A stretch of DNA of 45,849 nucleotides from Bacteroidota bacterium (GTDB taxonomy: Bacteria > Bacteroidota > Bacteroidia > Bacteroidales > Lentimicrobiaceae), in NCBI GenBank assembly GCA_009773515.1, contig WSXX01000034.1, forward strand, positions 31,999-77,847. Reading direction: 5' to 3'. Under the pieces are notes generated by a model. It did not search any database. It was not told the origin of the DNA and worked only from the letters and a program-made list of their open reading frames with translations. The position numbers and the translations under genes are program-made. Shown piece after piece: positions 12,965 to 42,554 of this stretch (its first letter is position 1; each line of letters opens with the position of its first letter).

Positions 12965-13002
12965 TGTCCCCTTTATGGTGCCAAATCGCTGATTTAAACC
13001 CT
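12965..13002 (+). promoter_or_regulatory. Late-type promoter, weak copy
   Basis: TGTCCCCTTT (12965-12974, two extra C), then exactly 20 nt, then TAAACCCT (12995-13002). Spacing equals that of the other late sites, but both boxes are degenerate. Gene start at 13009. Confidence 0.4.
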
Positions 13003-13008
13003 GAAAAT

Positions 13009-13398
13009 ATGTTGGTAATCGAAATCGCTTACAAGTATGACTCCGGAGAGGCATATACCCTATTGCCGATAAGGCTGATGTCCGGATCAATTTCACTTCA
13101 GGGTTCACCCTCCAGATCCGGATTTATTGAACAGGCTGAATGCAATGCTTATATACCCTATTTATCTGATGAGATGGATGCGGTTATTTTCAAACTCTCA
13201 AAACTGGGTGGTATCTTCATAGTTAAGGATACAAGTAACCTATTCCACGAGCTAGGCAATGACGAAGTAAAAGCAATGCTGAAATATAAACGGCTCAATC
13301 CTGGACAGCCTGGCGGAAAGTATGGGTATGAATTACAAATTACATTTTCTTCACCCTCCGGAATACCTGTTCAGTCCTTTAACAGCTCTGCTTCATAA
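13009..13398 (+). CDS. Hypothetical protein before the capsid protease
   Basis: A 129-aa protein from the ATG at 13009; the in-frame TTG at 12964 would start inside the promoter-like box. Unrecognised: beta-rich (VIEIAYKYDSGEAYTLLPIR, then GFIEQAECNAYIPYLSDEMD). Its position just before the head genes suggests a minor structural or head-accessory protein. The next late promoter lies within its last codons. Confidence 0.6.
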   Translation: MLVIEIAYKYDSGEAYTLLPIRLMSGSISLQGSPSRSGFIEQAECNAYIPYLSDEMDAVIFKLSKLGGIFIVKDTSNLFHELGNDEVKAMLKYKRLNPGQPGGKYGYELQITFSSPSGIPVQSFNSSAS

Positions 13399-13408
13399 TA
13401 TAATATTG
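13373..13408 (+). promoter_or_regulatory. Late-type promoter for the head operon
   Basis: AGTCCTTT (13373-13380), exactly 20 nt, TAATATTG (13401-13408), followed by TAGAAAC as at the promoters at 26036 and 42519. The protease gene begins at 13426. Confidence 0.65.
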
Positions 13409-13425
13409 TAGAAACAAATTTATTC

Positions 13426-14670
13426 ATGATGCGGGCATTTCAACCACACTTAGTTTCTGCGATTCTCACCGAACCATGGGCGATCTACGAAAAGGTAGTT
13501 TCAGACTATGCACCAATTGTGCTTAACATTCTGAATAAGGATGTTGTTTTTGATGCCGGTGAACCAGTTTTGCCAAGTGCAATAAGTGTGAATGCCCGTA
13601 ATTCAGCAGGATCTGTTTCATCTTCAAGTGACCCTGTTAATGTTTCAGTGATTACCATTGCTGGACCTTTAACGAAAAATGATCAGTTTTGTGGACCAGC
13701 AGGCACCAAGAGCATCGGCAACTGGATAAAGCAGGCAGATAAAGATCCTTCAATTGGTGCTATAGTTTTAAATATCGACAGTCCTGGTGGAACTGTCAAT
13801 GGTACCGAAGAACTCGGTAACATCATCAGGCAAACAAAAAAGCCAATAATTGCATTTGTTGAAGATATGGCTGCTTCAGCTGCCTATTGGTTAGCTGCGG
13901 CATGTGATGAAATCATCGCAAATAATTCAACCGCCCAGGTTGGAAGTATTGGCGTACTTACCTCATTCATGGATATGCAGCCGGCACTTGAATTGCAGGG
14001 TTATAAATTCCATTTGATCACAGCTCCTCAGTCAACCGACAAAGTAAAAACCTGGCAACAGTTAAGATCAGGAAATTATGAAGAGTACAAAGAAAATGTA
14101 CTGAAGCCCCTGGCTCAGAAATTTATTGATTCCGTTAAATCCGATAGGCCATCAGCTGAAGAAAAACACTTCACAGCTGATATTTATTTTGCCCAGGATG
14201 TTGTGGGATCTTTGATTGACAAAATTGGAAACTTTGATTCTGCAGTATCAAGAGCTGCTGAATTATCACTCACATCAGCTTACTTACCCAATCCCAATAC
14301 CAAATTAAATATGAACAAACCTGATCTGAAGAGGCTTGCAAAAGCTTCAGGAGTGCCAACACTCGAGAGTGTTGATGGCTCCATCACTCTTACTGCTGAA
14401 CAGGCTGTAGCTGTTGAAGGTGCTCTTGAGGCGCATGAAACATCTAATGCAACCTTGTCTCAGAAAGTAACGGACTCTTCCAACCAGCAGGCGCGAGTTA
14501 CTGAACTTGAAGGACAACTTCAGACAGCAAACGAGCGTATTGCGGAACTCGAAAAAGATCCTGCAGAAACAACTGCTGATCTTAACAAAGAAACCGATGC
14601 CAATGGCGGAGGTGCAAATGATGAATCATTCTTCGCACGTCTAGGACGTCTTTCTAACCAGAACAAATAA
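13426..14670 (+). CDS. S49-family capsid maturation protease with C-terminal scaffold-like tail
   Basis: A 414-aa SppA/ClpP-fold serine protease of the kind that processes phage proheads (compare lambda C). Visible: beta strand and oxyanion motif IVLNIDSPGGTV around 113-124, nucleophile Ser151 in DMAASAAYWLA, and the QVGSIGVLTS segment near 171-180. The C-terminal quarter (from about 325) is Glu/Gln-rich coiled coil (TELEGQLQTANERIAELEKD), probably an internal scaffolding domain, similar to the lambda C/Nu3 arrangement. It is directly upstream of the major capsid gene. Two ATGs are adjacent (13426, 13429). Confidence 0.88.
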   Translation: MMRAFQPHLVSAILTEPWAIYEKVVSDYAPIVLNILNKDVVFDAGEPVLPSAISVNARNSAGSVSSSSDPVNVSVITIAGPLTKNDQFCGPAGTKSIGNWIKQADKDPSIGAIVLNIDSPGGTVNGTEELGNIIRQTKKPIIAFVEDMAASAAYWLAAACDEIIANNSTAQVGSIGVLTSFMDMQPALELQGYKFHLITAPQSTDKVKTWQQLRSGNYEEYKENVLKPLAQKFIDSVKSDRPSAEEKHFTADIYFAQDVVGSLIDKIGNFDSAVSRAAELSLTSAYLPNPNTKLNMNKPDLKRLAKASGVPTLESVDGSITLTAEQAVAVEGALEAHETSNATLSQKVTDSSNQQARVTELEGQLQTANERIAELEKDPAETTADLNKETDANGGGANDESFFARLGRLSNQNK

Positions 14671-14675
14671 TTGAA

Positions 14676-15647
14676 ATGTCAGTTACAATTCATGAATTAT
14701 TGATTGCTGCAGGAACAAAGTTCCGCAAAGATCTTCTCACCATGCCTGTTGCTGAGTTGGCTCCTATTCTCAAATACATGTCGCTTAAAACCGGTATGCA
14801 GGGAAAAGAAGTTGGCGGTATTCTTACCACCGATGCTCAGTTGAGGCCATATCGCACCGATAAAGGCGCGAGTGACAATACCGCTATCAATCCATTCGAA
14901 TGGGAAACATTCCTGGGTGATGTGGTAAAAGAGTTTGACCCAAATGCCATTCTTGGCACACTTTACACCGAGGCAACTTCAAAGAAGCCCGATCAACGCG
15001 AAATTGCACGCCTTGTTGCCATGGAAATGGCCCGCAAAGTTGGCGAAGCTCTTCGCCAGAATATGTTTACAGCTGTTCGTGATGGCGCTGGTGATACCAC
15101 TGCCGATCTCTTCAACGGGTTCAGTACTCTTTTAACTGCTGCAAAAACAGCAAATAAGCTTACTGCAGCTCTCAATAACTATCAGGATCTTACTGGCGAA
15201 GCAATGACCAGTGCAAACTGCGGTGACATTCTGAAGGAATCTTACCGTGCAATGAACCCATTGCTCAAAGGTCGCCCTGTTAACCTGTATCTTCCTGATT
15301 CAGTTCTCGACATGTACGAAGACTGGTATCAGATTGAACATGGTCATGCTCCATGGAATGATGGTTTTGATCAGAGCAAGAAAACCCTCATCGGTTCACG
15401 CGGAAAATGTTCTTTCGTTCCTCTCGACAATATGGAGGGACAGCCTTACGCAATCTTCACTGTTAAAGAAAACATGAAGGTTGGTGTTGACCAGGAATCC
15501 GATAAGGAAACCGTTGAAATTCGCCGCCCTGACAATCCAAAACTTGTTCAGTTCTTCATGATGGCCTACTTTGGTGTAGGATTTGAAACCCTCGACAAGA
15601 GGTTTATGAATGTAATCGAAATCAACACAGGAGAGGAGGCCAGCTAA
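14676..15647 (+). CDS. Major capsid protein (HK97-fold likely)
   Basis: A 323-aa protein directly after the capsid protease, the standard place and size for the major capsid protein. Sequence features fit: a helical N-terminal arm (TKFRKDLLTMPVAELAPILK), a long helix (REIARLVAMEMARKVGEALR), and late beta segments with the common ending GFETLDKRFMNVIEI. There is no long N-terminal delta domain, consistent with the scaffold being part of the protease. Its stop overlaps the next start (AATG). Confidence 0.85.
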   Translation: MSVTIHELLIAAGTKFRKDLLTMPVAELAPILKYMSLKTGMQGKEVGGILTTDAQLRPYRTDKGASDNTAINPFEWETFLGDVVKEFDPNAILGTLYTEATSKKPDQREIARLVAMEMARKVGEALRQNMFTAVRDGAGDTTADLFNGFSTLLTAAKTANKLTAALNNYQDLTGEAMTSANCGDILKESYRAMNPLLKGRPVNLYLPDSVLDMYEDWYQIEHGHAPWNDGFDQSKKTLIGSRGKCSFVPLDNMEGQPYAIFTVKENMKVGVDQESDKETVEIRRPDNPKLVQFFMMAYFGVGFETLDKRFMNVIEINTGEEAS

Positions 15648-16234
15648 TGTCACTATTTGCAAGTCTTCCCTGGAATGATGGCCAGATTAACCCATCAGGG
15701 ATAAAAACAACCATTTACTGGATTCCAAAATCCCAGTTAGCACGCCCTTTGCCTAAGGTAAATCCGGCACCTGTTACACCAGCTGAGAACACAAGCCTAA
15801 GCGGCGATTTTGAGCCAACTGGAGCCAATAAGTGGAAAAAGTTGTACACTACCCAGGGAAAGGGTAAAGTGTTTTTCGAACCGGTAGGGGAGAAGGATCA
15901 TAAGATGTTCTTGAACAAAGGAACATTTTCTTTCCCCGATATCTCACCTGAAGCGCTGAGCCTGGCAAAGCAGACTATCAATAGCAATATTGTTATGGTT
16001 GTACCTATGCCACACGAAACCGAAAAACGGTTTGTTGTACTCGGCGATGAGGATTATGATGTTACCGTGAGCACAAAAGGCGATTCAGGAGATGCTCCTG
16101 GATCAGCTAAAGGATTAATAATTGAAATCGAAGTTCCATCAAGTACTCCTTTGCCTTACTATAAGGGTATACTCGAGCTTGAGGATGGAACATTAGATTG
16201 TGAGACCGGAGTATTTACTCCTAGCGCATCTTAA
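15647..16234 (+). CDS. Structural protein, possibly tail tube or head decoration
   Basis: A 195-aa beta-rich protein translationally coupled to the capsid gene and followed by a terminator. Segments such as FFEPVGEKDHKMFLNKGTFS and LIIEIEVPSSTPLPYYKGIL recur in Bacteroidota phage structural proteins. The Pro/Thr-rich stretch near 40-50 may be a linker. Being expressed at capsid level (same transcript, then terminator) suggests a high-copy virion protein; I cannot separate tail tube from decoration protein. Confidence 0.65.
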   Translation: MSLFASLPWNDGQINPSGIKTTIYWIPKSQLARPLPKVNPAPVTPAENTSLSGDFEPTGANKWKKLYTTQGKGKVFFEPVGEKDHKMFLNKGTFSFPDISPEALSLAKQTINSNIVMVVPMPHETEKRFVVLGDEDYDVTVSTKGDSGDAPGSAKGLIIEIEVPSSTPLPYYKGILELEDGTLDCETGVFTPSAS

Positions 16235-16258
16235 TTGATGCTTCCGATTCAATGTTGA

Positions 16259-16289
16259 AGCCCTGCCCTGATGGGCAGGGCTTTTTTTT
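16259..16289 (+). terminator. Terminator after the capsid genes
   Basis: Perfect 10-bp stem AGCCCTGCCC / GGGCAGGGCT, loop TGAT, then seven T. No late-type box was found between it and the next gene at 16304, so the following genes may rely on read-through. Confidence 0.92.
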
Positions 16290-16303
16290 AAAACCCCAAC
16301 AAC

Positions 16304-17050
16304 ATGAACCTAAAAGAACAAATTACAGAATGGTTAGAATCTGAAGAAAAAGACTTCAACCAGGGATTACAGCTCTATATTGAAGCTTCCCACAATCGCA
16401 GTGTAATGCTTTACCTGCAGAGAAAAAACAATCACGAAAAACTTACTTATGAGCTGCAAAAGCTTATAAAGCAAGTTCCTTCGCGGCTTGAAAAGCAGCC
16501 GGCCATTCCATTTGCCTCCAGGGCAGCTATCAACAAACAATCCCGGAACCGGGTCGAAGAATCTTCCACACACAAAATTCTTCAGCCTCGGAAAATCGAC
16601 AGGGAGAAACTGCCTGAAGATTTACAAAAGGTTTACGATTCAATTGGAGATCAGTATAAGATCCAGCGCAATATTCACGAAAAAATGAAGCTGGCCGATA
16701 CCGATGAATCCCGGGCTCAATTGCGTGAACAACTTCTTGAAGTTGATGACTACATTTCAAAGGCATGGAATGCCATTGATTTGTTTATCAAAACAGGCCA
16801 GGAGCCAAAATCCGAAGATAAAAAGGACGTTGATAAACTGAAGGCAATTAACTCGGCACGTTCTTACATCAGCAAGGGATTAAATGCGCTTGAGAAGCTC
16901 GCCGGCAAGAAAAAGGAAGAGCGTATTGCTGCAATTTCTGAACGTGTAGATCTGCTCATTAAACTTGATGTTTCTGTTAAAGCCGAAACCAGGGCTGAAC
17001 TCATCAGCCAGAATGTAATTAAAGAAAACAGCAAGCTGAAGGTTGACTAA
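16304..17050 (+). CDS. Helical phage protein, unknown
   Basis: A 248-aa, almost entirely helical, charged protein (NHEKLTYELQKLIKQVPSRL; DYISKAWNAIDLFIKTGQEP). No membrane segment. It begins 15 bp after the capsid terminator and precedes the glycosyltransferase by 11 bp. Likely a coiled-coil assembly or accessory protein; family not recognised. Confidence 0.7.
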   Translation: MNLKEQITEWLESEEKDFNQGLQLYIEASHNRSVMLYLQRKNNHEKLTYELQKLIKQVPSRLEKQPAIPFASRAAINKQSRNRVEESSTHKILQPRKIDREKLPEDLQKVYDSIGDQYKIQRNIHEKMKLADTDESRAQLREQLLEVDDYISKAWNAIDLFIKTGQEPKSEDKKDVDKLKAINSARSYISKGLNALEKLAGKKKEERIAAISERVDLLIKLDVSVKAETRAELISQNVIKENSKLKVD

Positions 17051-17061
17051 AGTATTTAACC

Positions 17062-18495
17062 ATGCAGCCTTGTAAAATAGCCGTATTGATCACCACGCAC
17101 CAGCGTGCCGGTATGCTCCTGGATCTGCTCGCGCAATTAAGTGAGCAGAGCCGGGAGTATACTATTTACCCCATCATTGCCATTGATGGACCACAGCCCG
17201 GGTATGATGTGGTTTTAAAATATCTTGAAACCGGCTTTCAGCATCATAGTTTACTTGTTAATGCTGAAAATGGTGGTAAAGCCAGGTATTGGGAGTTGAT
17301 TAATTTGATCTTTGCTGAAGCTCAGAGAATGAATGAAATTTATTCGTTTGATTATTTTATTCAGCTGCCTGATGATATCTCAATTGCTCCGGACTTTTTT
17401 AATGAGGCAATTCATCAATTCAGAGCGATTGCAGATCCCCGGGTAATATGTCTCAACCTTCTCAATGATGGCAGAACACAAACCGGATGGACCAGAATAC
17501 AGCCCAAGGATGTATCATACAGCCGATATGGTTTTATTCGCACTGGATGGGTTGATATGTGCTACATTTCAACATCACGATTCTTTGAGCAGCTGCATTA
17601 TAAAATCAAGCCGGTTAATCTCAACTGGAGTGCAGATCCAGCCCGATCGAGCGGAGTGGGCATGCAGATAAGTAAACGGCTCACAGCTCAGGGATACAAT
17701 ATGTACATGGTTTTCTATAGTCTGGTAGATCATGGCACCCATACAAGCCAGATGCATCCGCAGCATCGTAAAGAAGTGCCTCTTGTTGCAAAGATTAAGC
17801 AGCCTCGGGATAAAGTAACTGCAGGCATGGCTACCATCCCGGGAAGAGAAAAGAGTTTGCGCGATGCAGTAAACAGCATCATAAACCAGGTTGATGAACT
17901 GATCATTACTTTGAATGGTCATCAATCAATCCCTGATTGTCTGAAACACGAAAAAATTAAAGTGATCTCAGATCCGGGCAACTCCAGGGGAGATGCCGCA
18001 AAGTTTGCGATTCTGGGCGCTCAGGGCTATTTATTTACGCTCGATGATGATTTGATATATCCTTCAGATTATATCGCCGTAATGATCGCCAAAATCGATT
18101 TTTACAGCCGAAAAGCTTTGATTTGCCATCACGGTAGGTTTTTCCATAATTTCCCGGTGAAATCTTACTATCATTCACCGGCCAGAATTGTACGCTGTAC
18201 AGATCAAAACCATAAAGACCAGGTGCTCCATATTCCGGGAACCGGTGTTTCAGGCTGGCACAGCTCTACACTTCCGCACCTGGCCATTAACCATTTTTAT
18301 ATTCCCAATATGAGTGATATCTGGATGGGCATTTATTGTAAAATAAACCAAGTTCAGGTTATCGGTTGCGAACACAAAAAATACTGGATCCAGGAGAATT
18401 CTGCTTACGATCGCAAGGGTGCAATTTATGCACGTTACAACCGTAACGATGCATTTCAAACACTATCCATAAACTCAATAGAATGGATGCAATAA
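17062..18495 (+). CDS. Tandem-domain GT-A (family 2-like) glycosyltransferase
   Basis: A 477-aa protein with two apparent GT-A domains. Domain 1: N-terminal nucleotide-binding strand IAVLITTHQRAGMLLDLLAQ, IAIDG at 39-43, and the metal-binding pair in QLPDDIS near 103. Domain 2 begins near 255 (GMATIPGREKSLRDAVNSII), has IITLNG and the metal site FTLDDDLIYP near 328. Both keep an acidic DXD-like motif, so both could be active. It lies inside the packaging/head module and overlaps the next gene. Targets could be virion proteins, phage DNA bases or host surface sugars. No signal peptide, so it acts in the cytoplasm. Confidence 0.85.
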   Translation: MQPCKIAVLITTHQRAGMLLDLLAQLSEQSREYTIYPIIAIDGPQPGYDVVLKYLETGFQHHSLLVNAENGGKARYWELINLIFAEAQRMNEIYSFDYFIQLPDDISIAPDFFNEAIHQFRAIADPRVICLNLLNDGRTQTGWTRIQPKDVSYSRYGFIRTGWVDMCYISTSRFFEQLHYKIKPVNLNWSADPARSSGVGMQISKRLTAQGYNMYMVFYSLVDHGTHTSQMHPQHRKEVPLVAKIKQPRDKVTAGMATIPGREKSLRDAVNSIINQVDELIITLNGHQSIPDCLKHEKIKVISDPGNSRGDAAKFAILGAQGYLFTLDDDLIYPSDYIAVMIAKIDFYSRKALICHHGRFFHNFPVKSYYHSPARIVRCTDQNHKDQVLHIPGTGVSGWHSSTLPHLAINHFYIPNMSDIWMGIYCKINQVQVIGCEHKKYWIQENSAYDRKGAIYARYNRNDAFQTLSINSIEWMQ

Positions 18496-18944
18496 CATGG
18501 ATAGATAGCACAATTGGCATTTACCTGGATAATAAGATACAGGCTCATCATATTTTTGATGTTATGCTCAGTGAGCTTCAGACTGCTGATGAGCTTGTAA
18601 TAAGTTCATTTGCCATCACTGAGGTATGGGTGCGCCGGTTGATCCGGAATAAAGAAAAGTTAAATCACATTATTCTTATTCTTGATTTTACAGTCGCTTC
18701 CAGGAAAGCAAGGAATACTGATTTTGCTGCACAGAATGTAAATGAACTGTATCTCACAAAGCAGCACAGCAAAACCATTTACATGCGGTCAGGAAACCGG
18801 CAAATGCTTGCACTCATCAGCAACAATGCAACAAATAACCAAAGGTTTGAATCCGGGGTGATCTTCAGGGATCATCCGGCAATTAATATTTACCTGCAGA
18901 AACTAGAAACAGTTAAAAATGAAAGTGCCATATGGAGGATCTGA
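18483..18944 (+). CDS. PLD-like domain protein (degenerate HKD)
   Basis: A 153-aa protein with the layout of a single phospholipase D-like nuclease domain: a strand and helix (ADELVISSFAITEVWVRRLI), then HSKTIYM (H95, K97) and SNNATNNQRFE (113-123), matching the HxK...(G)SxNxTxNxRxE pattern. The usual Asp after HxK is not evident, so catalysis is doubtful. It overlaps the glycosyltransferase by 13 bp and the small HTH gene by 13 bp, just before terminase, which suggests a role in packaging or DNA end handling. Confidence 0.6.
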   Translation: MDAITWIDSTIGIYLDNKIQAHHIFDVMLSELQTADELVISSFAITEVWVRRLIRNKEKLNHIILILDFTVASRKARNTDFAAQNVNELYLTKQHSKTIYMRSGNRQMLALISNNATNNQRFESGVIFRDHPAINIYLQKLETVKNESAIWRI

Positions 18945-19195
18945 GTAAGATAGAAGAATATGCTGGCTTATTTCTTACTATCGATGAAATAGCTATACTG
19001 CTGGATGTTGATCCGGCAGAGCTCAGGCGCGATATCAGGCATGGCAAAAGTGACCGGGCACGGGCATACAACAAAGGTAAGATTCAAAGCATACTTGAAG
19101 TTCGCCGGCAAACGGTTGAGTTTGCAAAGAAAGGATCTCCTGCAGCTGAAGAACTAGTAAACACTTACATAATAAACCAGAAGAAAAATGAGTAG
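18932..19195 (+). CDS. Small HTH protein, candidate terminase small subunit component
   Basis: An 87-aa protein: HTH-like N-terminus (FLTIDEIAILLDVDPAELRR) and a basic helix with the 'VRRQTVEFAKKGSPAAEELV' pattern frequently seen in small terminase-associated proteins. Overlaps both neighbours. Probably recognises phage DNA for packaging together with the next gene product. Confidence 0.65.
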   Translation: MEDLSKIEEYAGLFLTIDEIAILLDVDPAELRRDIRHGKSDRARAYNKGKIQSILEVRRQTVEFAKKGSPAAEELVNTYIINQKKNE

Positions 19196-21378: not shown

Positions 21379-21494
21379 TGATAATAAATAGTAGTAAGAT
21401 CCTGGCGGCTTGGCTCTTTTTCAGAGCGATAGCGGAGAAAAATGGATAAATAAATCCGGTAGAGCGTACAAACTTTTATGAAAGTTTATTTTTT

Positions 21495-24103: not shown

Positions 24104-24544
24104 ATGCAAAATCAATTTCAACCGGTTGGTAATGGCTTCCTGCCATTTGCCAGCATTAATCTCAACGATGTACTTAGCTATATTGGTAAGGCATCAAACC
24201 GAAATCGCAGGGCAATTGAGATAGCCCTGAAGCTCAGCCAGAGCGATCAACTCAATCTTAACAATTTTTTGCAGCAGGTTTTGCCAATTGTGCCACAGCG
24301 CAAATGGTATTACTGGTTTTTCCGTGCCGTCAAAAACAAACTGTTCTGGCGCAAACGGTTCAATGTTAATGATCTTCCTTCATCAGTTCACCTGAAAGCC
24401 CTTGAAATTGCAGCCCGAGAATGTGGCAAATGCAGTGGCGAAGAAATAGTGTTTGCCAGGGAAAGCCTTTATCTGTTTAGCATGATATATAACGGCGCAC
24501 CCACCGGATGGCATTATAATGTTCAGGATAACCAAATCGATTAA
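24104..24544 (+). CDS. Hypothetical protein upstream of the antirepressor
   Basis: A 146-aa protein; GGAG lies 9 bp before the ATG. Helical (NRNRRAIEIALKLSQSDQLN) with a very aromatic, basic centre (RKWYYWFFRAVKNKLFWRKR) that may contact membrane or nucleic acid. No clear membrane span. First gene after the structured leader, 16 bp before the antirepressor start. Family not recognised. Confidence 0.65.
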   Translation: MQNQFQPVGNGFLPFASINLNDVLSYIGKASNRNRRAIEIALKLSQSDQLNLNNFLQQVLPIVPQRKWYYWFFRAVKNKLFWRKRFNVNDLPSSVHLKALEIAARECGKCSGEEIVFARESLYLFSMIYNGAPTGWHYNVQDNQID

Positions 24545-24560
24545 GAAAGGAGACATAAAC

Positions 24561-25139
24561 ATGGAAACGAAAATAATAAACATTGCACGTGTAAATGATG
24601 TAACCATTCAGGTGGTTGAAAATGGTCAGAAGTTGGTACCGGTTAGACCAATTTGTGATGCACTTGGTATCGCATTTAAACCACAGTTTGTTCGCCTAAA
24701 AGATGATCCAATCTTGAGTTCAACCGTTACCACCAGGGTAACAGTTGGAGCTGACGGAAAGCAGCGAGAAATGACCTGTATTCCTCTTCGCTATGTCTTC
24801 GGCTGGCTATTTATGATTGATTCCAGGAATGTAAAAGAAGAAGCCAGGGAATCGGTGATAAAGTATCAGAAAATGTGCTATGATGCCCTTTACAATTACT
24901 TTGCTCAAATGGAAGAATTCCTTAACTGGAAACAAAAGGTGGTTGAAGAGCGACTTATTGTTTACGACAATGCACGTATTGAATTTCGCGAAGCAAAAGA
25001 CAAGGTACAAGACGCCAGAGATTTACTTAACGAGGCACGCAAAGTAAGCTTTGAGCAATACTATGCTGATAAAGATCAGCTGAAGCTTGATTTTGATTCT
25101 ACTGTTCCTTTTGCAACAGGGGAGGTTTGTGATGAATAA
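24561..25139 (+). CDS. P22-type phage antirepressor (AntN domain)
   Basis: A 192-aa protein from the ATG at 24561, preceded by AAAGGAG; the longer reading from 24519 overlaps the previous gene. Residues 1-110 fit the P22_AR_N antirepressor domain: VRPICDALGIAFKPQFVRLK, then TCIPLRYVFGWLFMIDSRNV and YQKMCYDALYNYF. The rest is a coiled coil. Such proteins bind and inactivate phage repressors to trigger lytic growth. It is far from the repressor, under its own host-type promoter and behind a structured RNA leader, so expression is probably controlled after transcription start. Confidence 0.85.
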   Translation: METKIINIARVNDVTIQVVENGQKLVPVRPICDALGIAFKPQFVRLKDDPILSSTVTTRVTVGADGKQREMTCIPLRYVFGWLFMIDSRNVKEEARESVIKYQKMCYDALYNYFAQMEEFLNWKQKVVEERLIVYDNARIEFREAKDKVQDARDLLNEARKVSFEQYYADKDQLKLDFDSTVPFATGEVCDE

Positions 25140-25398: not shown

Positions 25399-25451
25399 CC
25401 GGTTGCCTTTGCCCCGTTCAGGCAAATTCCCCAGGCAACCGGTTTTTTTTT
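25399..25451 (+). terminator. Terminator of the antirepressor operon
   Basis: 10-bp stem CCGGTTGCCT / AGGCAACCGG (25399-25408, 25433-25442) enclosing TTGCC / GGCAA, followed by nine T. The last T is the first base of the next late promoter box. Confidence 0.92.
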
Positions 25452-25486
25452 GTCCTTTATAAACGCGATTTGCTGCTATAAATTAG
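25451..25486 (+). promoter_or_regulatory. Late-type promoter
   Basis: TGTCCTTT (25451-25458), exactly 20 nt, TAAATTAG (25479-25486), directly behind the terminator. Leader to 25533 of about 42 nt. Confidence 0.65.
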
Positions 25487-25532: not shown

Positions 25533-25979
25533 ATGAAAAAGTTGCTTTTCATTTTTGCGCTCCTGGTTCTCTCGATCGGGTTCACGAATGCCGGCTCTGT
25601 TGCTGACCAGTCACCACCCGGCTACACGACTGAAGTTGACGGCCTGCAGGTAGAACTGATGGTTATGGCTATCGTTCCCTGTCAGGCTTCAGTCGCTGCA
25701 ATCCCGGTCGCAGATTACCAATTCAGTACTTTTGCCCGGCTTATTTGGCCAACTCCATTAATTGATGTTATGTATTGCTCTAGTGGCGGAATTCCCTTTA
25801 GATGGCTTAACTCCGACATGACAATGATAACTACTAAGATTGCAGATTTCAGTTTCAAATATAATAGGCCGGTGGTTTACCCTTTGAAAACACTGTTATT
25901 TCATAGGTTGAATTTGCCTCCATGCACACAGAATCTTTCTAACGCGCCAGTTTATATACGTTGCCCTGCTTTCTCCTAG
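25533..25979 (+). CDS. Small secreted protein, single late gene
   Basis: A 148-aa protein with a textbook signal peptide (MKKLLFIFALLVLSIGFTNA, cleavage after TNA). The mature part has four or five Cys that could form disulphides in the periplasm and no further hydrophobic span. It forms its own transcription unit, with a late promoter in front and a terminator behind. This layout suits a late-expressed exclusion factor, a lysis helper or an envelope modifier. Family not recognised. Confidence 0.65.
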   Translation: MKKLLFIFALLVLSIGFTNAGSVADQSPPGYTTEVDGLQVELMVMAIVPCQASVAAIPVADYQFSTFARLIWPTPLIDVMYCSSGGIPFRWLNSDMTMITTKIADFSFKYNRPVVYPLKTLLFHRLNLPPCTQNLSNAPVYIRCPAFS

Positions 25980-26000: not shown

Positions 26001-26033
26001 AAGCCCCCCTGCTGTGAAGCCCGGGGGCTTTTT
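26001..26033 (+). terminator. Terminator after the secreted-protein gene
   Basis: 8-bp stem AAGCCCCC / GGGGGCTT (26001-26008, 26023-26030) and a T-rich tail. It ends two bases before the next late promoter box. Confidence 0.8.
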
Positions 26034-26035: not shown

Positions 26036-26071
26036 TGTCCTTTAAAATTGAGCTTTGAGGCTGTAAACTTG
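26036..26071 (+). promoter_or_regulatory. Late-type promoter for the portal-tape measure operon
   Basis: TGTCCTTT (26036-26043), exactly 20 nt, TAAACTTG (26064-26071), then TAGAAAAAA. The region shares TTTGAGGCTGTAAA and TTGTAGAAAAAA with the site at 42519. Gene start at 26087. Confidence 0.75.
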
Positions 26072-26086: not shown

Positions 26087-26308
26087 ATGGTTTTAATCAA
26101 TCATCTGCATAAAATGGTAGAGCGCGGATTGTTCTCCATAAGCTTCGTGGCTGAATCAGGCGAAGTTATACACATAAAGGAGTGTATTTGCACCAGCTGG
26201 CATTCAGAAGGCCGCACAATGAATATAAAGATCATTCCCTCAAATGATATCCGCACGGTGAGGCGATGCACAATTATTAATTACAACGATGAGGAGGTGA
26301 TGTTATGA
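26087..26308 (+). CDS. Small protein before the portal gene
   Basis: A 73-aa protein (MVLINHLHKMVERGLFSISF...), beta-rich, overlapping the portal gene by 4 bp with GAGGAGGTG just before that start. First gene of a nine-kb late operon. Unrecognised. Confidence 0.65.
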   Translation: MVLINHLHKMVERGLFSISFVAESGEVIHIKECICTSWHSEGRTMNIKIIPSNDIRTVRRCTIINYNDEEVML

Positions 26309-33655: not shown

Positions 33656-33691
33656 TGTCCTTTAATTTTAAACACCTGAGCATTAAACTTG
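33656..33691 (+). promoter_or_regulatory. Late-type promoter, probably giving a near-leaderless mRNA
   Basis: TGTCCTTT (33656-33663), exactly 20 nt, TAAACTTG (33684-33691). The ATG at 33696 starts only five bases after the -7 box, so transcription would begin at or next to the start codon. Confidence 0.7.
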
Positions 33692-36202: not shown

Positions 36203-36207
36203 AATAT

Positions 36208-36315: not shown

Positions 36316-36330
36316 ACTTTATTAAAAATT

Positions 36331-36366
36331 TGTCCTTTATCCCTGCACCTCTCTCAATTATTTTTA
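36331..36366 (+). promoter_or_regulatory. Late-type promoter, weak -7 box
   Basis: TGTCCTTT (36331-36338), exactly 20 nt, TATTTTTA (36359-36366). The first box is perfect; the second keeps TA and T-richness but lacks the final G. Gene start at 36380. Confidence 0.55.
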
Positions 36367-36379
36367 CCAAAAAAAAACC

Positions 36380-36778
36380 ATGAGCGCTTTTTCAACCTTT
36401 CTTGCCAACAAAGTAATTGATCACATGCTGCGCAATCAGGCTTACACCACGCCTGCAGCTGTGTATGTTGCACTTTTTACAGCTGCCGACGGCCTTGAAG
36501 CCAACACACCAACAGCTGAGGTATTAACTTCCGGTACCGGTTATACACGCAAAGCCGTTACCCTTGCAGCTGCTGCCAACGGTGCAACCGAAAACAATGC
36601 GGATGTGCTTTTTAATGCTGCCTCGGCCAACTGGGGAACCATTACCCATGCCGCCATTATGGATGCTGCCACCGCTGGTAATGTGCTCATGTGGAAGGAG
36701 CTTTCTGCAGCCAAAACAATTGAGGCTACCGATGTTTTTGTAATCACAGCTGGTAATCTCGACATAACCCTGCAGTAA
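36380..36778 (+). CDS. Phage tail fibre-family small protein
   Basis: A 132-aa protein with the pattern of a widespread phage tail/fibre family: FLANKVIDHMLRNQAYTTPA, YVALFTAADGLEAN, SGTGYTRKAVT, NWGTITHAAIMDAATAGNVL, ITAGNLDITL. The base composition is GC-richer than its neighbours. Overlaps the following gene at TAATG. Confidence 0.75.
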   Translation: MSAFSTFLANKVIDHMLRNQAYTTPAAVYVALFTAADGLEANTPTAEVLTSGTGYTRKAVTLAAAANGATENNADVLFNAASANWGTITHAAIMDAATAGNVLMWKELSAAKTIEATDVFVITAGNLDITLQ

Positions 36779-37116
36779 TGACTACGGTTTACAACGATTA
36801 TTACACAAACCTTGAAACTGGCGTTATCGCAATAGATAACGTCAATTTCTCGGTGCAGGTGCTCGACGAAAGTTATGTGCCCGATGCCGCACATCGTAAA
36901 AGCGCTGTGAAGGGAGTTATAAAAACATATCCCGGGCTGCTGCGTGGTACCGACATTGTAACGCTGACCATGAGCGAGATCGTTGATAAAATCAAAAGCC
37001 GTATGCAGGAGCTTGATGAGGCTTACCGCGTAGGTGCTGCAGGCTTTGTGGTGTATGATATCGCCACACAAAAACTTTGCTTTTACGAACCGTTTGACCG
37101 CATAGAAAATGGCTAA
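36778..37116 (+). CDS. Hypothetical protein in the fibre module
   Basis: A 112-aa protein (NYYTNLETGVIAIDNVNFSV is close to its beginning; helix SEIVDKIKSRMQELDEAYRV). Not recognised. It overlaps both fibre-type genes and so probably belongs to the adhesion or its assembly machinery. Confidence 0.6.
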   Translation: MTTVYNDYYTNLETGVIAIDNVNFSVQVLDESYVPDAAHRKSAVKGVIKTYPGLLRGTDIVTLTMSEIVDKIKSRMQELDEAYRVGAAGFVVYDIATQKLCFYEPFDRIENG

Positions 37117-39613
37117 CAGATATTGGGTAGGTGGATCGGGCAACTGGAACGACTCGGCCAGGTGGAGCGAAACCTCGGGAGGTGCCGGGGGTGCAAGTGT
37201 ACCCACACAGGCTGACAATGTTTATTTTGATGCCAACAGTTTTGCAGCCAACGGAACCGTAACCATCAACGCACACGCCAACTGCTTGGATATGGACTGG
37301 ACAGGCCTCGATCAATCGGTTACACTGAGCAACGCAGCGTTTAATTTGAGCATTTACGGCAGTTTAACGCTGGCGGCTGGATTAACGTGGACTTTTTCGG
37401 GTACCGGGTATTTGTATTTTAGGGCAATTGATAGTAGGACGATTACAACGAATGGAATAGTATTAAGAGCCAATAGAATTTATTATAATGGAATAAATGG
37501 TAAATGGACTTTATTAGACAATTTTTCAACAATTTCTACAAGTACTTATTATATTTCAGGAGAATTTGACACTAATGATAAAGTCTATACGGTAGGAGAC
37601 TTGATTTTACTTTTTGCAATAAGTGTAATTTTAACTTTTAGAAATTCTTTAATTAATGCCGGTGATGGTGTAATTTTCGGCACTGGGACTATCCCTGATT
37701 CAGCAGTTAAGATCAACTTTGGCACAAGCACTATTAGGGTAACTGGCAACTGGTTTACTGGAGGTGGAAAAACATATTATGACATTGAGCTAATAAAAGG
37801 AGGAGCTTCTCTAATAGCAGGCCAAGTTGGTGCATTTAGCTGTAGAAAACTAACACGTACTTCAACCATAGGAGCTAATGCTAATTTGCCGGTTGTGCAC
37901 ACTATAAATGTAGAGGATTTAATTTTAACGGGTTTCGATTCTGGTTTATCCAGACTTCTTGTTCATTCTACTACTATCGGCACACCCAGAACCATCGCCT
38001 GCAACGGCACAATTACAGCCAGTAATGTTGATTTTAGAGATATAACTTTAGCAGGAACTGCCAACCGTGACTTATCATCCATCCTCGGCGGTTCCGGTGA
38101 CTGCGGCGGCAATTCCGAAATAATATTTACACCTGCACAAACTCAGTATTTTAAACACACATCAGGCGCATGCAATTGGAGCGATGCCAGCAAGTGGTTT
38201 TCTAATTTTGATCGCACTGTTGCGGGCAGGGTTCCGTTGCCACAGGATGATGCAATTTTTGACTTGCTTAGCTTTATTGCAGATTCAAATCTTACTTTTA
38301 ATTGTCCTCGTATTGGAGGGGTAAATTTTAATGATATTAATGTAAACTTAATAATAGCCAAATCAATTGTGTTAGATATATATAGGGACTTTATCCTCAG
38401 CAATCGGATAAATGTATCATCATTTTATAATAATAATTACTTTCTGGCAAGGTATGATTTTATTTACAAGGCATTTAATAAAAATATTCCCTCAGTACAA
38501 TATTTTAATTCTCCGGTAAATGTAAGTGTAATAATGAATATGAATGAAACATTTACAGGAATTGGTATTTATTGTACTGTAAATTTTAATAACCATGACA
38601 TAACTATTGCTCAAGGTAATAGGCTCTATGTTTACCCTCTCGGTACGTTGATTCTTGGCAACGGAACACTTTCTATAATTACAGGATCATTGGGAATGAC
38701 AATGGCTACTTTTCTCGGTAATGTTATCCCGCAAGGATCAACAATCCATTTTAATAACTTGGCAGGTAGTTATCAATCCTCGGTAGATTTTAATAATAGA
38801 TCTTTTAACATAATTAAATTTTCCGGATTAAATACTGGGGGCTGCTTGATAGAAAAAGGATTTTCTTGTAATGAATTGATTATTGACCCTAGCAGAAAAC
38901 TCAGCTTTACTAATGGCATTTTATGTATAATTTCAAAACTCACCGCCATTGGCGATGCCTCAAACCCCATCACCATCGGCAGCACCACAGCAGCCAACCA
39001 CACCCTGCAATTTACAGGCGAAGGCATTGTTAATGCAGATTACTGCAGCATAAGCTACAGCAACGCCACCCCTGCCAACCGTTTTTTTGCCGGGCGCAAC
39101 AGCATAAACGGAGGCAACAATAGCGGCTGGGTATTTGCCCGCGGCATAGATGCCAGTCTGCAAGCTACTGCAGCAGCTGCTCTGGCAGCTATGGCACAGC
39201 GCAGGCGCAATGCATCCCTGGTAGCAATTGCAATTGCTCAACTGCAGGTAACTGCTTTGCGCAAACTGTTTGGCCAGGCGGCAATAACTGCAACCGGCAA
39301 CATTAATCTGCTTGCCGTAAAAGAACTTTTTGGCTCTGCCACCCTGCAAGGCGATGCTACGCTGCTTATTGAGGTTATACGGCAGCGCTATACAACAGCC
39401 ACGCTCGATGGCGAGGCAGGCATGCAGCTATTGGCATCAGCAATTTACCAAAGCACCATTCAGCTCACCGCTGCCGGGTTGCTCAATGTTAGCGCCACAA
39501 GCTACATTGCAGCTCTTATAGAGCAACTCAGGCTAATGAGTGGCATTACCCTCAGCTACAGCGCACCCTCAATAATTACCCTGCAACTCACTTTACAAAG
39601 CAAAATAAAATGA
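37109..39613 (+). CDS. Large tail fibre / adhesin with duplicated module and mosaic composition
   Basis: An 834-aa predicted receptor-binding protein. The start RYWVGGSGNWNDSARWSETS, then DNVYFDANSFAANG, recurs in weaker form near 350 (GACNWSDASKWFSNFDRT ... PQDDAIFDLLSF), indicating an internal duplication. Between and after these lie long beta-helix-like Asn/Ile-rich stretches. The last 150 residues are Ala/Gln-rich and helical. Base composition changes sharply inside the gene: roughly 37430-37975 and 38250-38935 are AT-rich, while 37109-37400, 37980-38240 and 38940-39600 are GC-rich, suggesting exchange of receptor-binding segments. Confidence 0.7.
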   Translation: MANRYWVGGSGNWNDSARWSETSGGAGGASVPTQADNVYFDANSFAANGTVTINAHANCLDMDWTGLDQSVTLSNAAFNLSIYGSLTLAAGLTWTFSGTGYLYFRAIDSRTITTNGIVLRANRIYYNGINGKWTLLDNFSTISTSTYYISGEFDTNDKVYTVGDLILLFAISVILTFRNSLINAGDGVIFGTGTIPDSAVKINFGTSTIRVTGNWFTGGGKTYYDIELIKGGASLIAGQVGAFSCRKLTRTSTIGANANLPVVHTINVEDLILTGFDSGLSRLLVHSTTIGTPRTIACNGTITASNVDFRDITLAGTANRDLSSILGGSGDCGGNSEIIFTPAQTQYFKHTSGACNWSDASKWFSNFDRTVAGRVPLPQDDAIFDLLSFIADSNLTFNCPRIGGVNFNDINVNLIIAKSIVLDIYRDFILSNRINVSSFYNNNYFLARYDFIYKAFNKNIPSVQYFNSPVNVSVIMNMNETFTGIGIYCTVNFNNHDITIAQGNRLYVYPLGTLILGNGTLSIITGSLGMTMATFLGNVIPQGSTIHFNNLAGSYQSSVDFNNRSFNIIKFSGLNTGGCLIEKGFSCNELIIDPSRKLSFTNGILCIISKLTAIGDASNPITIGSTTAANHTLQFTGEGIVNADYCSISYSNATPANRFFAGRNSINGGNNSGWVFARGIDASLQATAAAALAAMAQRRRNASLVAIAIAQLQVTALRKLFGQAAITATGNINLLAVKELFGSATLQGDATLLIEVIRQRYTTATLDGEAGMQLLASAIYQSTIQLTAAGLLNVSATSYIAALIEQLRLMSGITLSYSAPSIITLQLTLQSKIK

Positions 39614-39891
39614 GCAAAATACACGTTGGCCAAACCCTCGATCTAAGATTAGACACCGGCCTCAGCAACCTGGCAACCGCCCAGCTGCTCGAGATCCATT
39701 ACCGCAAACCCAACCAGGCAACCGGCAAAATAACAGCCTCCCACGACGGCACCAACCTGCGCACCATCCTCGCCCCCGGATTCCTCGATCAGCCAGGCCG
39801 CTGGAGCTTCTGGAGCTATGTGCAATTCGATAATAACACGCTTGCCCCCGGCGATAAAGCTGATGTGCAGATATTTGCGAAAGGGTATTAA
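39610..39891 (+). CDS. Small fibre-module protein, beta sandwich-like
   Basis: A 93-aa protein: MSKIHVGQTLDLRLDTGLSN, LEIHYRKPNQATGK, GRWSFWSYVQFDNNTLAPGD. This pattern (IHVGQ...IHYRKP...G.W.FWSYVxF) is found in small proteins encoded between tail fibre and lysis genes in many phages. Overlaps the adhesin gene by ATGA. Confidence 0.65.
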   Translation: MSKIHVGQTLDLRLDTGLSNLATAQLLEIHYRKPNQATGKITASHDGTNLRTILAPGFLDQPGRWSFWSYVQFDNNTLAPGDKADVQIFAKGY

Positions 39892-39892
39892 A

Positions 39893-40246
39893 TTGTCACT
39901 CATCAACGACATAATCAACCGGCACGTTGACGACCGCAAAGGTCAGCATGTGTTTATCAGCCGGCAGCAAATAGCTGCTATCTGCAGGGATTATGCCGAT
40001 AATGTAAAACCGAAGCCGGAAAAGAAAAAAAGAAGCATTTCGCACCGTGTTAAGATTGCTTATTCAAAAGGCGTCAAACACGGTTACATGCTTCACGCTG
40101 ATGAACAATACGAAAAAGCGATGTTTGAGATGTGGAAAAAGCATGTAGCCGGGCCAACAGAGGCCAACGCTTGTTTTAACGAACATGCACGATTTGCTGA
40201 TGTTGAAAATTTAGAGATAGTGGAACCGGAGGTGATTGTTAAATGA
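39893..40246 (+). CDS. Hypothetical basic protein, TTG start likely
   Basis: A 117-aa reading from the TTG at 39893, two bases after the previous stop (MSLINDIINRHVDDRKGQHV...). An ATG at 39863 is in frame but overlaps the previous gene by 29 bp. Lys/Arg-rich centre (KPKPEKKKRSISHRVKIAYS). Function unknown. Confidence 0.55.
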   Translation: MSLINDIINRHVDDRKGQHVFISRQQIAAICRDYADNVKPKPEKKKRSISHRVKIAYSKGVKHGYMLHADEQYEKAMFEMWKKHVAGPTEANACFNEHARFADVENLEIVEPEVIVK

Positions 40247-40252
40247 TCTATC

Positions 40253-40288
40253 TGTCCTTTGATAGCGGCTCCGGCCGCTTTTTCTTTG
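40253..40288 (+). promoter_or_regulatory. Late-type promoter containing a terminator hairpin in its spacer
   Basis: TGTCCTTT (40253-40260), exactly 20 nt, TTTCTTTG (40281-40288). The spacer holds the hairpin AGCGGC-TCCG-GCCGCT (40264-40279), followed by TTTTCTTT, which would terminate upstream transcripts. A second hairpin CTTTGTG / CACAAAG (40284-40304) ends exactly at the start codon. Confidence 0.55.
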
Positions 40289-40304
40289 TGATAAATTCAC
40301 AAAG

Positions 40305-42518
40305 ATGTTATCAATCAAATTAGGCAACTATATTGCTGATCTTTCAAAAAGTCAACTTTCAATTGTTCGCACTTCTCCATATCCTGGAGTGGCTGTCGGT
40401 ACTCAGGGAGGAAATTATATTTTTAATTTTACCCTTCCGGCAACCGATGAGCTGAAAGCTGCACTTAAATATGCCCACCGGCCGCAAAGCGGCTCATCAG
40501 TTGTTTTTGAACCATACCGGATTGATGCCGGCAGCGGGTTGGTATTTGAAGGAATTGCGAAGGTTGTAGAAAGCTCCAGTGAGGAGTATGAAATATTCTG
40601 CCCTGTCGAAAATGGCGATTTCAATTTTACTGCCAAAAAGATAAAGCTTAATGAGCTTTATTTAGGCGGTGATAGACCATTAGATACAGTAAAGTATTTA
40701 GTAAGTGCCAATAACACTAGTGAAGCTATTGAAGTTGATGATGTAATATTACATCCTGATGATATTTGGTGGTATCCACTTATTTTTGATGATATCATTG
40801 TTAATCCTGATGCTATCTTAAACAGCCTAGGGGATACTATAATCATAAACGAGACAGGTAAAATTGTTATTTCTTTTTGCATTGGTATTGAGATTACTAG
40901 AGGGATTATTGAGCTCAGGATACAAAGGTCAGGAGTTGTTGATATATTTGTGTCTAGGGAATACATAAGAGATACATTTGAACCTATTTTATATGTGCAT
41001 ACTGAATTAGATGTTGAGATTTATGATCAACTCAAGTTTTATATTACTGTTAGAAGAGAACCCATATTTACAAAAGCTATTTTCTCTCTAAAACCTTACT
41101 CTATACAAGTCTATGAGCAAGGTATATTGAATAATAACGCTGGTACTGATCAATATCCTTTAGCTGACTATGCTGTTTTCCCACTTGAAAATCCAGAATC
41201 ATTTTCCAATTGGCCAGATGATTTTTATCAACTTGATAACATGTCAATTAAAGAGGTATTTAGTAAATACTCTAAAGTTGTAAATTATTTTAAAGATGGT
41301 AAATTCCCGGCTATTTTGGTGGGTGTAGCAGATAACATGTACCTTTATTCTGGCAATTTGTTCTGCCCATATCCATTCATTGCATATCTAGTAAAAAGAA
41401 TACTTCATTATTTTCGTTTCAAGTGCTTAAATAATCCTTTCGAAACCAGTGGGTTTAATCAAATGGTATTAATAAACCATTTCTACGAAAATACTTTTTT
41501 ACACGATAATGCAAGCATAACTATTTCAAAGCCAGCATTTAATTTAATTGATCATGTTCCAGAATGGAGTGTTTATGATTTCCTTAAACACCTATGTAAT
41601 CTTTTTGGAATGGGATACGAAGTAGATAATCAGACAAGCTCTATAGAATTCCATTTTCTTGAGGATATCTTGACCACTGATGATTATATCGATATTTCTC
41701 ATCTGGTAATTGGAAAGATAAAAGTTAAACCTTCCAATGTTTCTGGAGTAAAAATTGTGCAAAAGCCCGCTTCTGAAGATAAATATTTTGACTCTGTGAA
41801 ATCACTTGACGGGTTGAACTTTAAAGGAGAAATTCATAGATGGATAGATTTACCAGAACTAGGACAAATAAATGATTGTTATTTTGTTGGCCAGATGGAT
41901 AGCTATTACGCATGGAAATATAATCCTGATTTATATTCGTTTGGTTGGGTAGTACATTCAAAAAATTATATTCAATCTATAATTAACGGTAATGCTGAAA
42001 GTGCAACTGAGATAAGCACTGATCTGTACCCTATAATAATGAGAAGCCCATATTGGATTGATGATGTGATTGGAGCAAATGAGTGGCGAGCCTGGCATAT
42101 TCCTGCAAGTCATCAGGCCGGGAAATTCGAGGGCGCTCCGGAAATGTATCAAACAAAATGGATGCCGGGTGTTCTTTATTACCATGGTATGGTAAAAGAT
42201 AATCATGATAATGATTACCCATTTGCTTCCCCTGGAATAACGGATCCTGATGGCAACACAATTACAGGCTTGGACTTTTCACTGAAGCTGGAGGGTGAAA
42301 ACGGGCTTTATGAGAAAAAGTGGAAACGTTTCGCCGAATGGCGAATTAATGCCAGGGAAGTCATTGTTCCAATACTCCCGGATTCAGAGTTTATTCGCAC
42401 GCTGAGATTCAATAGAAAGTATATGATTGATGGCGTGAGGTACATTATAGCTGAATTCAGATGCAATATTTCAAGCCAGGGACCTGAACCCGGTGAGCTA
42501 ACTATGCTCAGATTATGA
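40305..42518 (+). CDS. Large tail-tip / baseplate protein
   Basis: A 737-aa protein beginning MLSIKLGNYIADLSKSQLSI. Beta-rich N-terminus with YIFNFTLPATDELKAALKYA, then central domains and a C-terminal region (GLYEKKWKRFAEWRINAREV) typical of the last structural gene before the lysis cassette in Bacteroidota phages. Probably forms the tail tip or central baseplate. It has its own promoter and ends at the first base of the next promoter region. Middle of the gene is AT-rich, like the adhesin's. Confidence 0.7.
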   Translation: MLSIKLGNYIADLSKSQLSIVRTSPYPGVAVGTQGGNYIFNFTLPATDELKAALKYAHRPQSGSSVVFEPYRIDAGSGLVFEGIAKVVESSSEEYEIFCPVENGDFNFTAKKIKLNELYLGGDRPLDTVKYLVSANNTSEAIEVDDVILHPDDIWWYPLIFDDIIVNPDAILNSLGDTIIINETGKIVISFCIGIEITRGIIELRIQRSGVVDIFVSREYIRDTFEPILYVHTELDVEIYDQLKFYITVRREPIFTKAIFSLKPYSIQVYEQGILNNNAGTDQYPLADYAVFPLENPESFSNWPDDFYQLDNMSIKEVFSKYSKVVNYFKDGKFPAILVGVADNMYLYSGNLFCPYPFIAYLVKRILHYFRFKCLNNPFETSGFNQMVLINHFYENTFLHDNASITISKPAFNLIDHVPEWSVYDFLKHLCNLFGMGYEVDNQTSSIEFHFLEDILTTDDYIDISHLVIGKIKVKPSNVSGVKIVQKPASEDKYFDSVKSLDGLNFKGEIHRWIDLPELGQINDCYFVGQMDSYYAWKYNPDLYSFGWVVHSKNYIQSIINGNAESATEISTDLYPIIMRSPYWIDDVIGANEWRAWHIPASHQAGKFEGAPEMYQTKWMPGVLYYHGMVKDNHDNDYPFASPGITDPDGNTITGLDFSLKLEGENGLYEKKWKRFAEWRINAREVIVPILPDSEFIRTLRFNRKYMIDGVRYIIAEFRCNISSQGPEPGELTMLRL

Positions 42519-42554
42519 TGTCCTTTAGAAATGGGTTTTGAGGCTGTAAAATTG
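42519..42554 (+). promoter_or_regulatory. Late-type promoter of the lysis operon
   Basis: TGTCCTTT (42519-42526), exactly 20 nt, TAAAATTG (42547-42554), then TAGAAAAAA. Closest relative of the site at 26036. Gene start at 42571. Confidence 0.75.

Follow-up and report, generated by a model that had tools for sequence, protein, structure and literature searches.

RinA, Ltr and ArpU, the late regulators of temperate siphophages of Gram-positive bacteria, are encoded just before the packaging and head genes. At the middle promoters of phage T4, which depend on MotA and AsiA, a phage box replaces the -35 element of the host and the host -10 element is kept, the MotA box lying nearer to -10. Here we describe a box of sequence TGTCCTTT that recurs before the late genes of a prophage in a Bacteroidota bacterium of the Lentimicrobiaceae (assembly GCA_009773515.1, contig WSXX01000034.1, positions 31,999 to 77,847 of the forward strand). 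The whole stretch of 45,849 nucleotides (nt) is referred to as the window, and positions are counted from its first letter; its gene content, according to Pfam and PHROG matches, is that of a prophage of the siphophage type. The box is followed, after a spacer of 20 nt (N20), by a -7-like element. The promoter of the Bacteroidota primary sigma factor has TAnnTTTG at -7 and TTTG at -33 (PMC7366714, PMC9723704).

The motif has a fixed spacing and a recurrent position, is conserved among related phages and occurs together with a single protein family, represented in the window by the gene at 12437–12943. It is quite probable that these sites are the late promoters of a temperate siphophage, read at the box by the 12437 product while host RNA polymerase uses a -7 element of host type; we infer from the regularities of the sequence that this product recognises the box and thereby activates transcription. 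In the proposed mechanism, the gene would make a small DNA-binding protein whose target is TGTCCTTT at positions of about -40 to -33; in this place, promoters of the host primary sigma factor normally have TTTG at -33. Once bound, the protein would compensate for the missing -33 contact and hold host RNA polymerase and its primary sigma factor on the -7 TAnnTTTG; since each of several late operons carries a separate copy of the box, the head, portal, fibre and lysis genes would start together as the protein accumulates. A wider proposal, which we hold with less assurance but still consider more plausible than its opposite, is that one family of small proteins acts as the late-gene activator of temperate siphophages across the Bacteroidota (those of Bacteroides, Porphyromonas, Polaribacter, Cellulophaga and Flavobacterium) and supplants the -33 recognition of the host, the letters of the box being changed by group (TGTCCTTT, TGTCTTTT, TGTCTTAA) and the geometry being nearly fixed.

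Putative promoter sites in the window and in related phages

The initial annotation listed eight sites, seven of which were found to be real (Table 1), six with the box TGTCCTTT and one with AGTCCTTT. The remaining one, at 12965, was rejected as a promoter: there are two extra bases in its box, its -7 has no TTG, and comparison with relatives reveals it as the left arm of an inverted repeat behind the stop codon of the regulator. The gap of 20 nt followed by a -7-like box is present at all seven sites; six of these boxes begin with TA as proposed, and the one at 40253 begins with TT, as is also seen in records G041 and G042. Likewise, each of the seven precedes a late gene. For the site at 33656, the transcription start would be expected at or adjoining the start codon of the open reading frame (ORF) 33696, and the M23 peptidase downstream of the last site (ORF 42571) is probably a lysis gene. 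The first GTCCTTT on the plus strand of the window is at 13374. TGTCCTTT occurs seven times in the window (six on the plus strand, one on the minus), against a mean of 2.24 and a maximum of 6 in dinucleotide shuffles, none of 100 reaching seven; GTCCTTT-N20-TA also occurs seven times (six plus, one minus), against a mean of 0.35 and a maximum of 3.

Relatives were gathered by means of the large terminase, which gave 80 viral loci. Among the distinct late-strand TGTCCTTT of these relatives, counted with omission of L009 (99% identical), TA stands at exactly +20 in 32 of 37 cases, versus 1 of 21 on the other strand. The search of related prophages recommended in the initial annotation found the GTCCTTT-N20-TA layout kept, strand-biased and placed before late genes. 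In four annotated phages, 20 of the 22 same-strand GTCCTTT lie 30–110 nt 5' of an annotated coding sequence (CDS), the expected fraction being 0.08–0.11 (Leef_1 6/6, Mea-Yong924-1 4/4, BT-TP2 5/5, Ingeline_1 5/7). In each of two Porphyromonas phages, three sites fit the layout: one stands 5' of the protease, one 5' of the gene that precedes the portal, and one at the gene preceding the tape measure. A wrong-spacing control (N18) was compared with the strict N20 pattern in 80 fetched viral loci out of 120 stretches for each. An ATG occurs within 45 nt of 73/88 strict N20 sites and of 37/80 control sites, and loci with at least two relaxed sites number 20/80 for N20 and 0/80 for N18. That the pattern arose by chance, or that it is a signal of another kind such as a packaging or recombination site, is hardly credible in view of these spacing, strand and CDS statistics and of the N18 control, even though the motif is short and T-rich and runs of T often stand 5' of the box. 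The family of phage late promoters put forward in the initial annotation is strongly supported, by some 30 related records with fixed spacing, strand bias and a position before late genes.

In the host assembly (5,034,399 bases), TGTCCTTT-N20-TA is present 11 times, five of them in the 45.8-kb window, and the reversed-pattern control 48 times; two of the six sites outside the window continue like a -7 box. The initial annotation had named a motif equally common in unrelated host DNA as the observation that would speak against it; outside the prophage no enrichment was found (six sites in about 5 Mb). Likewise, in two genomes reached from the protein side (G318 and G282, see below), the genome-wide matches are 18 versus 16 and 26 versus 92 in the reversed control; because these counts are near or below the controls, the concentration of sites is local. 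These counts bear on the idea that a host factor reads the box and is exploited by the phages. In its favour, the box is common to phages recorded from hosts of the genera Bacteroides, Porphyromonas, Polaribacter and Cellulophaga, and a variant form is present in a Flavobacterium phage; nevertheless, the absence of enrichment in host DNA, the genome-wide counts of G318 and G282 and the variation of the box letters by phage group make it very improbable.

The anatomy of the sites was examined in 140 late-strand GTCCTTT from 25 records, with no selection on the -7. The columns at +20 are T 68, A 85, n, n, T 66, T 93, T 69 and G 65 percent, and a T precedes the box in 74% of cases; the percentages fit the host TAnnTTTG, in agreement with the proposed Bacteroidota sigma type of the -7. 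The pattern.A..TT at a spacing of exactly 20 accompanies 78/140 late-strand versus 5/62 other-strand GTCCTTT, and at a spacing of 21 it accompanies 41/140 on the late strand (overlap with spacing 20 not counted). The primary-sigma promoters of F. psychrophilum have TA at -12 (PMC9723704), and with the TA of the -7 set there, the box spans about -40 to -33. The claim that GTCCTTT replaces the TTG at -33 thus needs refining: the box does occupy that place, but it is not a simple replacement, as its TTT overlies the TTT of TTTG. The base that follows is G in 7% of the 140 sites, so that a host -33 TTTG is not formed. To judge by these letters, the TGTCCTTT box stands in place of the host -33 TTTG and is joined to a host-like -7 TAnnTTTG.

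The same columns bear on the possibility that the box is the -35 element of an alternative sigma factor, either encoded or selected by the phage. Sigma factors read promoters as two boxes at fixed spacing, and some sites carry a -7 TAnnTTGC that resembles the SM5 class of F. psychrophilum (PMC9723704). However, the -7 seen most often is that of the host primary sigma factor, and the sigma-factor models of Pfam gave no match among 40 window ORFs or the scanned family members, some small ORFs lying outside the scan; this explanation is therefore distinctly unlikely.

A small protein family that accompanies the box

A homologue of the 12437 product at the level of BLAST was found in 16 of the 44 records searched. 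Eighteen records were read at length, and all 12 of them that bear a homologue have TGTCCTTT-N20-TA on the late strand. Among homologue-bearing records seen as loci only, G019 (L009) and G031 (L021) have the pattern, and the fragments G022 (L012, 11.5 kb) and G024 (L014, 10.3 kb) are without it. G039 and G054 have the pattern though BLAST missed the protein, part of which was later detected in G039 by a profile search. A protein-first search, in which the regulator is found and the box is then sought, does not depend on the way in which the box was discovered. On this side, the set consisted of three new viral records and three new genomes (4 of 395 genomes matched, that of the window included). 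G457, G459, G318 and G282 have three strict sites each near the regulator and on its strand; G458 has no strict site, and three relaxed ones on the late strand with none on the other. G187 is outside the box test, as its contig ends beside the regulator gene. AGTCCTTT sites are also present in G457, G458 and G459 at the equivalent position 3' of the regulator. A search with the BT-TP2 protein gave 18 loci, some of them near-duplicates, of which 17 records were scanned, L444 being left out. The pattern GTCYTTT-N20-YANNTTTG has 29 sites in 12/17 of these BT-TP2-type records, all on the regulator strand, and its reversed control has none.

Four of the 18 records read at length (G041, G042, G043 and G046) have no TGTCCTTT-N20-TA at all, and an early view that both regulator and motif are absent from them proved wrong. 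In G043 and G046, a de novo scan for 7-mers at a fixed distance from the -7 singled out TGTCTTT/GTCTTTT, again with the same spacing, and direct reading showed that TGTCTTTT-N20 precedes start codons in all four. On the late strand, the varying base is T in three boxes of G041, in four of G042 (plus one G), and in five each of G043 and G046, C being found in none of the four records; G046 has two T boxes on the other strand. With TGTCTTTT as their box and a homologue that has diverged, these four records serve to test co-variation. In the Flavobacterium phage 1H, TGTCTTAA-N19 occurs four times on the late strand and not on the other: one copy is directly 3' of the syntenic regulator candidate, one is before the head protease and one is at the start of the tape measure. 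The BT-TP2-type phages mix C and T boxes within one genome, which counts against a strict coherence of the box. A specificity switch by a single residue, T/S versus K/R behind the RR in the C-terminal helix, was considered and rejected, because C and T boxes occur together in the BT-TP2-type records G461, G465, G466, G468 and G475.

The 12437 product has no accepted family in Pfam, PHROGs or NCBIfam, and the matches of family members are weak and inconsistent; only the 1H protein matches well, to the unnamed PHROG phrog_21888. G44, K124, I127, K145 and R149 are invariant in an alignment of 15 sequences that includes that of the window. When profiles were compared with hhalign, the window type matched the BT-TP2 type with an expectation value (E) of 9.3e-7 (91%; two rows only on the BT-TP2 side) and the T-box type with E 5.1e-5 (67%), and the BT-TP2 and T-box types matched each other with E 1.6e-10 (97%). 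A profile of 39 rows that excludes these members finds those of Leef_1 (E 4.3e-6), Mea-Yong (1.3e-4) and Ingeline (3.6e-4); an earlier and narrower profile left the cultured and T-box members below threshold (E 0.008 to 1.3). In total, a family member at E < 0.001 is present in 28/30 box-bearing records, 19 of which are rows of the profile and nine of which are not. Single-sequence searches reached less far: a scan of genome contigs with the 12437 product gave no relative, the window protein had chance matches only among annotated phages (best E about 1), and a scan with Leef1_39 matched Leef_1 itself alone.

The AlphaFold model of the 12437 product has a mean predicted local distance difference test score (pLDDT) of 80 and a single significant viral fold match, a Leef_1 protein of 157 amino acids (E 6.8e-5, template modelling score 0.55). 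By length and place, this protein fits Leef1_39, two genes before the protease/capsid gene. The model of a T-box member (pLDDT 86, predicted template modelling score 0.80) ends in helices 111–121 and 126–147, with R138, R140, K141 and K142 conserved and a mean pLDDT of 94–96 for residues 111–140; its C-terminal helices are predicted to form a helix-turn-helix. The family gene lies one small gene 5' of the head protease in the window, Leef_1, BT-TP2, the two Porphyromonas phages and G318, directly 5' of it in Ingeline, and four genes 5' of it in 1H.

Several observations weigh against the proposed reading of the sites as late promoters served by the 12437 family. On the side of the box, 62/140 late GTCCTTT have no.A..TT at exactly +20, and in a lax test 51/88 N20 sites fall inside an ORF of at least 90 amino acids on either strand (68/80 for N18). 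G054, of which 20 kb of a 21-kb fragment were read, has boxes and no regulator by profile. The strict pattern is absent from 5/17 BT-TP2-type records; three of these five have degenerate forms, e.g., TGTCCTTC-N20-TAATTTTG, and the other two are fragments of 17–19 kb, partly read. On the side of the protein, the 12437 model has a single continuous C-terminal helix without a turn, and searches of the PDB by fold and by sequence gave no match that backs a DNA-binding fold. Both the best reversed-ORF control (15.1) and an unrelated ORF of G041 (12.8) outscore the 1H homologue (E 0.018, 12.6 bits), whose family membership rests on synteny; the Mea-Yong homologue does not adjoin head genes. The co-occurrence could also reflect, in part, shared ancestry of the late region; this is tempered because Leef_1, Ingeline_1 and BT-TP2, whose terminases are about 26% identical to that of the window, nevertheless have both box and regulator, and because a changed box accompanies the diverged T-box proteins. 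Lastly, tblastn with the window proteins ties the 12437 product with the LuxR gene, each being found in 10/25 records.

This tie concerns the choice between the two activators proposed in the initial annotation, the 12437 product, which is favoured, and the LuxR-like product of 2245, which is less so. Under the second option, the promoters would be real, the LuxR-like protein or another phage protein would read the box, and the 12437 family would be a linked gene of other function. Besides the equal tblastn counts, it draws support from a GerE protein in 17/27 records and from further candidate DNA-binding genes of the window, namely the DnaA-C helix-turn-helix gene at 7498 and the P22 antirepressor-type gene at 24519. 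However, GerE was not found in G035, G457, G458, G459, Leef_1, BT-TP2 and others, some of these records being fragments, though Leef1_22, below the Pfam threshold, was deposited as LuxR-family; and the 7498 protein is found in 3/25 records by tblastn. The 12437 family is recovered by profile in all but two of the box-bearing records and is syntenic in six phages or records. The option is accordingly rather unlikely, and the LuxR gene was set aside as the poorer candidate for the box reader; since tblastn ties, the preference for the 12437 product rests on profile, fold, synteny and the protein-side test.

Layout of the window and side observations

Table 1. Predicted late promoters, candidate regulators and neighbouring elements of the window
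Feature	Position	Strand	Remarks
LuxR-type (GerE) regulator, alternative activator candidate	2245..2787	+	Pfam
Predicted late-gene activator, 168 amino acids	12437..12943	+	Long C-terminal helices; K124, I127, K145, R149 invariant in family
Inverted repeat 3' of regulator stop codon	12955..12993		TTGTCC core in left arm; imperfect in window
Late promoter AGTCCTTT-N20-TAATATTG	13373..13408	+	Precedes S49 protease gene 13426
Head maturation protease (S49)	13426..14670	+	First clearly assigned head-operon gene; PHROG 53 E 6.2e-58; Pfam S49
Late promoter TGTCCTTT-N20-TAAATTAG	25451..25486	+	Precedes ORF 25533-25979, without Pfam or PHROG match
Terminator-like stem	26016..26031	+	Immediately 5' of 26036 promoter
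Late promoter TGTCCTTT-N20-TAAACTTG	26036..26071	+	Precedes ORF 26087 and portal-like gene 26305 (weak match)
Late promoter TGTCCTTT-N20-TAAACTTG	33656..33691	+	Between end of tape-measure gene and ORF 33696
Late promoter TGTCCTTT-N20-TATTTTTA	36331..36366	+	Directly precedes ORF 36380 (fibre-type protein, Pfam Gp80)
Late promoter TGTCCTTT-N20-TTTCTTTG	40253..40288	+	Precedes ORF 40305; GC-rich stem within spacer
Late promoter TGTCCTTT-N20-TAAAATTG	42519..42554	+	Directly precedes ORF 42571 (M23 peptidase)

Encoded in the early region of the window are a Cro/C1-like repressor (a sub-threshold Pfam match), the LuxR-type regulator and a ParB-like protein; a DnaA-C helix-turn-helix protein at 7498–7995 (Pfam) belongs to this region too. 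The early region is followed by the 12437–12943 gene, the S49 head protease, a terminase-like gene, a weak portal match and the tape-measure gene; an integrase is at 43833–45224 on the minus strand. In the late half, a P22 antirepressor-type protein (24519–25139, Pfam) lies amid minus-strand genes. Terminator-like sites in the region number 17 versus 16.4 expected by chance and thus show no excess; therefore, the pairing of terminators with promoters is a mere impression caused by the runs of T before many boxes.

The inverted repeat behind the regulator gene is longer and better paired in several relatives, and such a repeat stands just 3' of the regulator stop codon in 8/14 relatives compared (L094–L096 and L098–L102). 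Its arms contain TTGTCC (or TGTCC) and the complement, that is, the core of the box; the outer arms vary between phages and are largely complementary. In L108, six direct copies of TGTCC replace the repeat. The repeat may act as an RNA hairpin or as an operator through which the regulator controls its own gene. In BT-TP2-type phages, the box directly 3' of the regulator has no -7 at N20 (L175:6029, which is BT-TP2 itself, L431:8482, L434:5756 and L439:8365); instead, a box resembling TAnTTTTG stands at a distance of just 8 nt in L431 and L439.

Another aspect concerns the surroundings of the -7. The start codon of gene e of phage T4 is hidden in read-through transcripts. In some late promoters of the phages studied here (G041, G042, G025, L449, L450 and others), an inverted repeat brackets or includes the -7 and its right arm ends near the start codon; a repeat score of at least 9 is reached at 15/110 sites, versus 1.4% when the downstream part is shuffled. 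By analogy with gene e, such a repeat could hide the start codon in read-through transcripts. In the BT-TP2-type and T-box groups, the palindrome (G)GTAATTAC(C) lies in the N20 spacer of a single late promoter per phage (L431:13860, L433:11615, L435–L438, G046:10914, G469:12956), a feature that suggests a second regulator at that promoter.

Some deposited annotations are affected as well. In the Porphyromonas phage L449, the CDS annotated at 26279 starts before the box at 26303, and in the Flavobacterium phage 1H the annotated start (CTG) of the tape-measure CDS falls within the promoter spacer (L177:8527); the position of the box suggests that both annotated starts are wrong. The Microcystis phage Mea-Yong924-1 (L174, MZ447863.1) encodes a protein of the regulator family and has the box before four CDS; the organism that it really infects may be a Bacteroidota companion present in the culture.

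Comparison with known systems

The box and the protein together provide a sequence rule that marks late operons, can correct gene starts, predicts which genes are switched on at induction and may indicate the hosts of phages whose host is unsure. The natural regulator and promoter pairs could become inducible parts for Bacteroides genetics, and the system allows one to test how a phage protein could substitute for the contact that an unusual primary sigma factor makes at -33. The initial annotation knew of no late promoter of this form, and none was found in searches of open-licence literature; nor did these searches find a described late activator for these temperate phages of Bacteroidota, one of which infects gut Bacteroides. 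In the paper that describes Leef_1 and Ingeline, the term promoter is absent (PMC8776804).

In comparison with the host primary-sigma promoter, the sites share the -7 box and its place and differ by having TGTCCTTT at -40 to -33. As with RinA, ArpU and Ltr, the 12437-type gene sits just before the head genes in most phages compared; in contrast with these systems, several dispersed late promoters are present here, and the 12437 family shows no family match to these regulators in Pfam, PHROGs or NCBIfam. The resemblance to MotA/AsiA of T4 lies in a phage box that takes the place of a host element while the host -10/-7 is kept, and the position of the box fits this comparison; the differences are that the regulator has no Pfam match and that the MotA box is nearer to -10. 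The late activator C of phage Mu, related to the middle activator Mor, is a phage protein that several late promoters need, adjoins the -35 region and works with host RNA polymerase (PMC4461284), as would the candidate described here. The C site lies upstream of -35 (PMC4461284), whereas the present box runs into the -33 position; no sequence match of the Mor/C family to the 12437 family was found in Pfam or PHROG, nor any fold relationship. The box and the protein family appear to be new, but small phage proteins that activate late promoters are a known kind, of which Mu C is an example (PMC4461284).

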